Of a stretch of 64,000 bases of DNA, positions 5,231 to 11,044 are shown piece by piece; within the stretch, counting starts at the first letter, position 1, and every line of letters starts with the position of its first letter. The notes beneath the pieces were generated by a model, which was not told the DNA's origin, searched no databases, and saw only the letters and a list, made by a program, of their open reading frames with translations. A program made the position numbers and the translations under genes. The DNA lies in the NCBI GenBank assembly GCA_018818785.1, contig JAHIRF010000002.1, forward strand, positions 1 through 64,000. The letters run 5' to 3'. The stretch is from Thermoplasmatota archaeon. Its GTDB lineage: Archaea; Thermoplasmatota; Thermoplasmata; UBA10834.

Positions 5231-5363
5231 TGACCAACCTCGAATCTGCATGGAAATGCCATCTCATAACTTTATCTGTGATGTCATGCGCATGCTGGCC
5301 TAGATTGACTAGCTCATTTGCCGAGCCCGAAAAGGCTTATGTATCCGCAGACTCATCATAAGG

Positions 5364-6593
5364 GTGCCAGGTGCTATAGTGACCAGAGCAATCTATGTCA
5401 GCGACGCTGATGTCGAGATGTCAAAGGATGTCGAGAGTCTTAGAATCGACAGGCATTTGGTGACTGACCTGTCATCCATTCTGCCTGGACGCAGGCGCAA
5501 GATGGTCGACAGGATCGAAGAGCACGGGAGGAAGGCTCCTCTCTCGATAGTGCCCATACTTCTCAGGCATTACAACGACGATAACCCCAAGGTTCGTGAG
5601 CAGCTGAAGACTACCATCGCGCGATTGACGCAGTCCGAGCCTGGTGAGCTGGCAATGGTAGAATGCCTGTTCAGTCGGGACCCCCTGATATCCGACACGG
5701 CTGCGAAGCTCCTTGAGGAGCGCAATTTCAATAGTGTCAACTTCATCGACACATTCAGGCAAGCGAAGAATCTCGTGGTGCAAGCCAGGAAGGCGGAGGT
5801 ATTCTGTCAGGATGTCGAGGATCTGATGGCCGATTCGATCGAGACCTACAAGGAAGGGCGGTTCGATCAGGCGATGACCAACATGATGATGGCGAAGGAT
5901 CTTCTGGAGGACCGACTGGAATGGCACGGCCATCTCAGAGGATACATCAAGGATGTGCTAAAGCTCACCCCGATGCTCGGACGAAGCGGTGTCCAGGTGG
6001 ATTCGATCCAAGACTCGATTCGAAATCTGTCGTCGGCCCTGCAATCGAGGGAATATTCAGATGCTACAAGTCTATTGGCGTTGCGACGCCAAGAGACGAG
6101 GTTATGGAAGCAGCTATGGAGCCTCGAGGAATACATCACCAAACGCATAAAGGCAAAGCCAATCGTCGAGTTGATGGTGCTCAAGGATTCCGATCGGAAT
6201 CTGCTGGATAATTTTGTGAGGGTCGCTCGGAAAGTGGATGATAATATCCAGGATGGCAGACCCGCGGATGCCCTTCGAACCGTCGAGGATTTCATCAGAA
6301 ACGATATCTCCGCCAGCTATCTCATGAATGATGGGAAGAGGCTCGATGCAAAGGACGAGGCTGCATGGTATACCATGTGGGCCACAGGGCTCGGTTTGCT
6401 CAAGATGATTTCTCCAGTGATACCGAATGTTGCTGAAGAGTTCTACCAACAATATTTCAGGGATAGGGAGGGCGCCCCTAGTATCCACGCAGTAGACTGG
6501 CCGGAACCCTTCGCCGTCCTGGGCAATCCGAAAGAGGAACCTCGACCCACGCCCTCAAAGAAGGGTGGACGAAAGAAGAAGGGGCCGTCTTAA
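5364..6593 (+). CDS. HEAT-like protein with orphan class I tRNA-synthetase anticodon-binding-like domain
   Basis: A 409-residue protein of unknown function. The N-terminal 120 residues look like helical HEAT-type repeats (I-V-P-I-L-L-R-H-Y near residue 62, then repeated acidic helices). Residues about 140-370 are helical. They contain a segment very like the anticodon-binding bundle of leucyl/methionyl/valyl-tRNA synthetases: L-L-K-M-I-S-P-V-I-P-N-V-A-E-E-F followed by S-I-H-A-V-D-W-P-E-P. No Rossmann catalytic domain, HIGH or KMSKS motif is present. The last 25 residues are basic and rich in Lys, Pro and Gly, suggesting RNA contact. A TATA-like box at 5335-5344 lies 24 nt before the GTG start, consistent with a leaderless message. 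The gene converges on uridine phosphorylase with a 4-bp overlap. Confidence 0.7.
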   Translation: MPGAIVTRAIYVSDADVEMSKDVESLRIDRHLVTDLSSILPGRRRKMVDRIEEHGRKAPLSIVPILLRHYNDDNPKVREQLKTTIARLTQSEPGELAMVECLFSRDPLISDTAAKLLEERNFNSVNFIDTFRQAKNLVVQARKAEVFCQDVEDLMADSIETYKEGRFDQAMTNMMMAKDLLEDRLEWHGHLRGYIKDVLKLTPMLGRSGVQVDSIQDSIRNLSSALQSREYSDATSLLALRRQETRLWKQLWSLEEYITKRIKAKPIVELMVLKDSDRNLLDNFVRVARKVDDNIQDGRPADALRTVEDFIRNDISASYLMNDGKRLDAKDEAAWYTMWATGLGLLKMISPVIPNVAEEFYQQYFRDREGAPSIHAVDWPEPFAVLGNPKEEPRPTPSKKGGRKKKGPS

Positions 6594-10094: not shown

Positions 10095-10205
10095 TTACTT
10101 CTTCTTCTTCTTTGCGGCCTTCTTCGCGACTTTCTTCGCGGGCTTCTTAACGGCCTTCTTCACTGCTTTCTTTTTCGTCTTCTTTCCACACTTTGCGCAC
10201 GACAT
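10095..10205 (-). CDS. Tiny Lys/Ala-rich protein with a CxxC knuckle (36 residues)
   Basis: The protein starts M-S-C-A-K-C-G and continues as K-K-A-V and K-K-P-A-K-K-V-A repeats; 19 of 36 residues are lysine. The C-x-x-C could bind a metal, and the tail resembles the lysine/alanine tails of histone H1-like proteins. GGAGG lies about 9 nt before the ATG. The opposite strand is open as a poly-Phe frame, a compositional shadow of the Lys codons. Chromatin or RNA binding is inference. About 210 bp of AT-rich DNA separates it from the divergent GTPase. Confidence 0.6.
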   Translation of the reverse strand: MSCAKCGKKTKKKAVKKAVKKPAKKVAKKAAKKKKK

Positions 10206-10417
10206 AGGTTTTTTTCCTCCTACCGCGTATTGATGCATCTTCCCCATCAAGCACCTGTTACCGTCAGGTTTTGCTCAACTTTCATGACGCATCTCTGAAC
10301 ATGTAAATGCGTTATGTATAATAATACTCTTTTGATTCTCTTTCGTATTTTGATAATGAACAATCATCATGCCCGCATCTTCCTTCTTCACAATGACAAT
10401 CGATGAGCACGAATTGA

Positions 10418-11044
10418 ATGGGAATACGAAGGGACTACGCGGTGCAAACGTTTTTTAGACTACTTACACATACATTAGATGCGCAAGGGGTCGTTGAGTC
10501 ATTGGCTGAAAGCAATGATACAAAGAAATTGAAGATATGCTTGGTCGGTGATGTTGGTGTCGGCAAGACAAGCATGATCCGAAGATACGTGCTCGATGTC
10601 TTCGACGACAAGTACATTGCCACGATCGGAACGAAGGTCACCAAGAAAGAGATCGAGGCAAAGAATGCGAAGACCGGCGAGACGCAGAAGATAGTCCTTT
10701 TAATCTGGGACATCATGGGTCAACCGAGTTTTAGAGAAGTATTACGCGAGGCCTACTTCTATGGTGCGGAGGGTGCACTGGCTGTCTGTGATCTTACGAG
10801 CAAGGAGAGTCTAGGCGAGCTCCGATATTGGGTCAAAGCTATGACATCAACTACCGGTGAGATACCGATTGTATTCCTTGGAAATAAGTATGATTTGAAG
10901 GACGATGTCAGAATCGATTCCAAAGACCTCGAGGTCTTTGCAATGAAACATGGTGCTCCTGCATTGTTGACATCTGCGAAGACCGGATACAACGTCGAGA
11001 ACGCTTTTGCCAACCTTGTTGATATGATACTCAATCCTGACTGA
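10418..11044 (+). CDS. Ras/Rab-like small GTPase
   Basis: A small GTP-binding protein of 208 residues, or 180 if the TTG at 10502 is used. All five G motifs are present: G-D-V-G-V-G-K-T at 44-51, a switch I threonine in A-T-I-G-T near 69-72, W-D-I-M-G-Q at 97-102, N-K-Y-D at 156-159 and S-A-K near 189. The Gln after the glycine of motif G3 is the residue used for GTP hydrolysis in Ras. There is no C-terminal cysteine, so lipid anchoring of the eukaryotic type is not expected. No GAP, exchange-factor or roadblock gene is adjacent. TATAATAATA at 10317-10326 may be part of its promoter. Confidence 0.88.
   Translation: MGIRRDYAVQTFFRLLTHTLDAQGVVESLAESNDTKKLKICLVGDVGVGKTSMIRRYVLDVFDDKYIATIGTKVTKKEIEAKNAKTGETQKIVLLIWDIMGQPSFREVLREAYFYGAEGALAVCDLTSKESLGELRYWVKAMTSTTGEIPIVFLGNKYDLKDDVRIDSKDLEVFAMKHGAPALLTSAKTGYNVENAFANLVDMILNPD

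Follow-up and report, generated by a model that had tools for sequence, protein, structure and literature searches.

The gene at 5364–6593 and its domain layout

The window analysed here is a 64-kb stretch of DNA from a Thermoplasmatota archaeon, and neither RNA features nor tRNA genes were found in it. On its + strand, an open reading frame at 5364–6593 encodes 409 amino acids from a GTG at 5364; an alignment of relatives points to the GTG at 5379 as a possible true start, which would give 404 amino acids. A putative TATA-like element, CTTATGTAT, lies upstream (5336–5344, + strand) and is conserved in nearly all relatives from the organism's own family. From the N-terminus, and all on the + strand, the protein comprises a HEAT-repeat region of seven helices (residues 14–119; 5403–5720), a middle helical domain (residues 122–243; 5727–6092), a ValRS-type anticodon-binding domain (residues ~243–387; 6093–6524) and a lysine/arginine-rich tail (residues 388–409; 6525–6590). 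The structure model, built with 51 sequences, is entirely helical, with a mean pLDDT of 90.5 and a pTM of 0.77.

Relative to a near-saturated dS, dN was 0.13–0.28 across the three domains, lowest in the middle domain, next in the HEAT region and highest of the three in the anticodon-binding domain. Together with the open frame and its relatives, these values identify 5364–6593 as a real gene under purifying selection. The tail behaves differently, with a dN of 0.67–1.8 against that of the rest of the protein. An earlier note on this DNA, made from the letters alone, had counted a basic tail among the working parts of the protein; the tail is real in the 5364–6593 protein, but it is not a feature of the family and is missing in most members. 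A lysine-rich tail occurs only in genera g1 and g2 and in some of g3, and it is lacking from the second order described below, from family f2 and from the majority of one genus. Being patchy and fast-evolving, it cannot be a core element of the mechanism.

Residues 14–119 are HEAT repeats. When the N-terminal and middle parts were searched as a family profile, the alphaRep HEAT proteins were matched with E=2e-21, in agreement with the HEAT-like N-terminus described in the earlier note, and Pfam HEAT and HEAT_2 were matched in 21 and 23 of the 51 family members, respectively (E≤1). The 5364–6593 protein alone scored 18.6 with Pfam HEAT, below the cut-off of 23.5. This part is made of paired helices in the predicted structure, and a basic stretch, PGRRRKM/ERRRM, is conserved within it.

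D150, R184, Y194, L199, P203 and G209 of the middle domain are invariant across the family. Searches with this domain as part of a larger protein matched no known family to residues 122–243, and hhalign found it unrelated to the HEAT or anticodon parts. An internal duplication of the helical parts was ruled out, at an hhalign probability of about 1% or less. The middle helical domain is therefore strongly conserved and unplaced by any search in this analysis.

A class Ia anticodon-binding domain without a catalytic domain

The domain at residues ~243–387 is truly of the class Ia anticodon-binding type. Pfam Anticodon_1 (PF08264) matched residues 277–386 with E=1.9e-14 and 54.2 bits, compared to a gathering cut-off of 25.1, and was matched in 47 of the 51 family members (E≤1). 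The motifs I-P-N-V-A-E-E-F and H-A-V-D-W-P-E-P, which had been picked out as very like the end of such a domain, are present and form part of it. The best NCBIfam match was to the valine–tRNA ligase models, in which residues 232–384 were aligned to the anticodon-binding part of ValRS (E=1.3e-11), and T. thermophilus IleRS ranked first in a sequence search of the PDB (profile E=3.8e-12). When the model was compared with known structures by VIA-align, the ValRS anticodon domain 4xkz came first (Z 16.6, rmsd 2.5, 140 residues, 243–386), and the other rows listed were Ile, Met, Leu and Val synthetases, all class Ia; Foldseek alone also returned synthetases as first matches, with weak E-values. Profile and structure comparison of the C-terminal part both gave a class Ia anticodon-binding fold, and not an unrelated helical fold. 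In the 5364–6593 protein, Pfam found no catalytic domain and a scan for HIGH and KMSKS found neither motif, so the domain is an orphan, as had been claimed.

The family and the Thermoplasmata ValRS have in common GLLKM, then a conserved P, E, YQ and F up to SIH...WPE, including the shared stretch YQxxFxxxExxxSIHxxxWPE. In a tree of 53 domains (145 columns), the family formed one group with support of 83/86. In this tree, whose root is uncertain, the group clusters with the ValRS and MetRS of Thermoplasmata and is separate from IleRS and LeuRS; branch support for the ValRS affinity was moderate on this 145-column alignment. ValRS is most likely the source of the domain.

The same genome encodes a separate ValRS, two IleRS-like proteins, one LeuRS-like and one MetRS-like protein, as assigned by length, sequence and tree position. 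Because each of these class Ia synthetases carries its own anticodon domain, a spare one is not needed by the genome. Rescue of an incomplete synthetase by supply of a missing domain was not supported, the five other Anticodon_1 proteins having their domains in place. Genomes of the organism's own family have two IleRS-like open reading frames (1398 and 1050 amino acids; G000:C9:136814 and G000:C12:150656), and those of the methanogen order have one.

Retention of the fold and loss of putative anticodon contacts

Forty-four alignment columns were invariant in five Thermoplasmata ValRS, and 20 of these 44 were retained by 50% or more of the family members. The kept columns are mainly those of the fold core, i.e., D277, R326, K347, P354, E358, Y361, W379 and P380, each kept in >90% of members; R326, a ValRS-conserved arginine that ends the third helix, was kept in 97%. 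We take K581, N584, K654 and E651 of T. thermophilus ValRS to be anticodon contacts or to lie beside them, with K581 and the 650–651 region presumably facing the anticodon in the T. thermophilus ValRS-tRNA structure. In the family, the equivalent of K581 is replaced by Q, E or H (0% kept), that of N584 by S or A (3%) and that of K654 by G or Q (9%); the equivalent of E651 was kept in 22%, and the equivalents of W642 and D647 were within the 0–9% range. Along the sequence, the spacing of the lost positions 250/253 and 317/321/324 is that of a helix, which hints at a rebuilt surface. Judged on sequence, the protein would carry neither hallmark of the ValRS enzyme, i.e., neither a Rossmann catalytic domain with HIGH and KMSKS nor the residues taken to contact the anticodon. 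The proposal that the bundle reads tRNA is weakened by these replacements, although it is conceivable that tRNA is bound in a different mode.

Distribution and gene neighbourhood

The gene was found in single copy in all 21 genomes analysed from its own Thermoplasmata order, using the N-terminal and middle part as query, and a search of relatives recovered full-length homologues across this order, whose named genomes are Thermoplasmata metagenome-assembled genomes. A second order was found with a class-wide profile, 36 of 101 sampled genomes giving a match, and the 35 second-order loci that were read held open frames of 357–435 amino acids matching the whole-family profile. Since the tested second-order genomes carry mcrA, these are methanogens of the same class, probably Methanomassiliicoccales. 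The full domain architecture is conserved in both orders. In the rest of the phylum, the matches were weak and short (E about 1e-4 to 1e-5), mostly to proteins of other lengths. A contig labelled Proteobacteria (L062, JAHJKV010000204.1) holds a family fragment of 74% identity and is probably mis-binned archaeal DNA. A defence or phage origin was rejected: PADLOC matches were weak (E 0.02–0.04), and there was no relative in viral contigs.

The gene block of the own order reads OTC, RecJ-like, RNaseH-like, metallophosphoesterase, (MscS), the 5364–6593 homologue, uridine-phosphorylase-like, membrane protein and MFS. That of the methanogen order reads metG, PHP, roadblock (opposite strand), the family gene, ftsZ and PAPS reductase (opposite strand). 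Because the neighbourhoods of the two orders are unrelated, no consistent partner emerges from context.

Two further open reading frames of the window were noted. A Ras-family small GTPase is encoded at 10418–11044 (+ strand; Pfam Ras E=2.5e-35) and is retained by several relatives within the syntenic block. A 51-amino-acid open reading frame at 10095–10250 (− strand) contains a CxxC pair together with a tail rich in lysine and alanine (KKAVKKAVKKPAKKVAKKAAKKKKK) that looks histone-H1-like.

A proposed repurposed docking module and its alternatives

Because the fold residues are kept in >90% of members while the counterparts of K581, N584, W642, D647 and K654 of T. thermophilus ValRS are kept in 0–9%, we interpret the domain as repurposed, i.e., as a part of the translation apparatus that seems to have been put to a different use. 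The reading that we prefer, and on which we are evenly divided, is that the protein is a non-catalytic adaptor that uses a repurposed ValRS anticodon-binding bundle as a docking module. The HEAT array and the family-specific helical domain would together form a helical platform, and on it would sit a bundle taken over from the valyl-tRNA synthetase of an archaeon. This bundle would no longer read valine anticodons, and its rebuilt surface may dock another partner, most likely a translation or cell-division protein. The core function would reside in the middle domain, where constraint is strongest.

It is also conceivable, though in our view unlikely, that the protein binds RNA, the bundle still holding an anticodon stem-loop or an RNA that resembles one, so that it would serve as a tRNA chaperone, a synthetase partner or a translation sensor. 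The genuine anticodon-binding homology, the PGRRRKM/ERRRM stretch of the HEAT part, the lysine-rich tail of several genera and the near-universal R326 are all points in favour of RNA binding. However, the ValRS-conserved positions that putatively contact the anticodon are lost, and the tail is that of a minority of the family and evolves fast. The anticodon domain is, moreover, acidic in most members, as are most of the synthetase fragments with which it was compared.

The neighbourhood in the methanogen order raises a further reading, by analogy and quite improbable, in which the protein would be an adaptor of cell division or of the cytoskeleton, with FtsZ or regulators of FtsZ as its binding partners. 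At the methanogen-order loci read, the family gene sits immediately upstream of ftsZ and next to the roadblock/LC7 gene; FtsZ is a tubulin homologue, and the HEAT array would be somewhat TOG-like or PomY-HEAT-like. PomY of Myxococcus xanthus is a HEAT-repeat protein; it interacts with FtsZ, whose polymerisation it stimulates (PMC13170346). The likeness lies in HEAT repeats joined to extra domains and, on the side of PomY, in its work on FtsZ (PMC13170346), whereas the other domains differ; the comparison is one of description, and no sequence relation is claimed. Against this reading, the gene of the own order is not near ftsZ. In addition, five methanogen-order genomes (G083, G159, G231, G294 and G305) are without the family gene and retain ftsZ and the PAPS reductase with a short gap instead, so the adjacency could be mere synteny. 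The absence of the gene from these five genomes also indicates that it is dispensable in some lineages.

About eight FtsZ-superfamily matches were found in one archaeal genome (G000:C4:184271 and C4:185705; C12:164614, 165875, 185806 and 241878; C9:193208 and 319294), and relatives have a similar number. Several of those in G000 are 55–72% identical to the methanogen FtsZ that adjoins the family gene. Methanogen-order family f6 gave only short, weak FtsZ-superfamily matches.

That the protein is a ValRS decoy or feedback regulator, competing for tRNA-Val or valS mRNA, would fit a domain most likely derived from ValRS but is very improbable, since the putative anticodon-contacting residues are not kept and valS is not adjacent in the loci read.

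Comparison with known systems and significance

The ValRS anticodon domain (PF08264; 4xkz, 1gax) and the family domain are alike in fold, length, helix order, buried residues and the terminal SIHxxxWPE. Unlike ValRS, the family protein is without the catalytic, editing and C-terminal parts and is fused to HEAT repeats and a new helical domain, and the invariant residues of the likely tRNA face are lost. HisZ, YadB, AlaX and GCN2 are non-synthetase proteins built from synthetase domains, and stand-alone synthetase pieces with new jobs are in this sense already known. These proteins resemble the family in keeping a synthetase piece for a role other than aminoacylation, but what they retain is a fold of catalytic or editing type, or else class II elements. 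Arc1p, Trbp111 and the scaffolds of multi-synthetase complexes are likewise non-catalytic proteins of the synthetase world, which could act as partners; they differ in using an OB-fold tRNA-binding domain, and Pfam found none in the 5364–6593 protein. No protein is known to us in which a HEAT scaffold bears the anticodon bundle of a class Ia synthetase and no other part of the enzyme, and our literature search found neither a paper joining these domains nor any description of such a solitary bundle on this kind of scaffold.

More specifically, an exapted synthetase anticodon-binding domain might serve as the protein-docking module of an archaeal adaptor of FtsZ or of translation state; in the methanogens, where it is encoded with ftsZ, such an adaptor would couple division to translation, with the middle domain as the active part. 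We regard this extension as decidedly improbable. All 21 genomes analysed from the order, and some of the methanogenic Thermoplasmata, have retained the family, so the protein must have an activity that is under selection. The family provides a clear case for studying how a domain that reads RNA is turned to another use.
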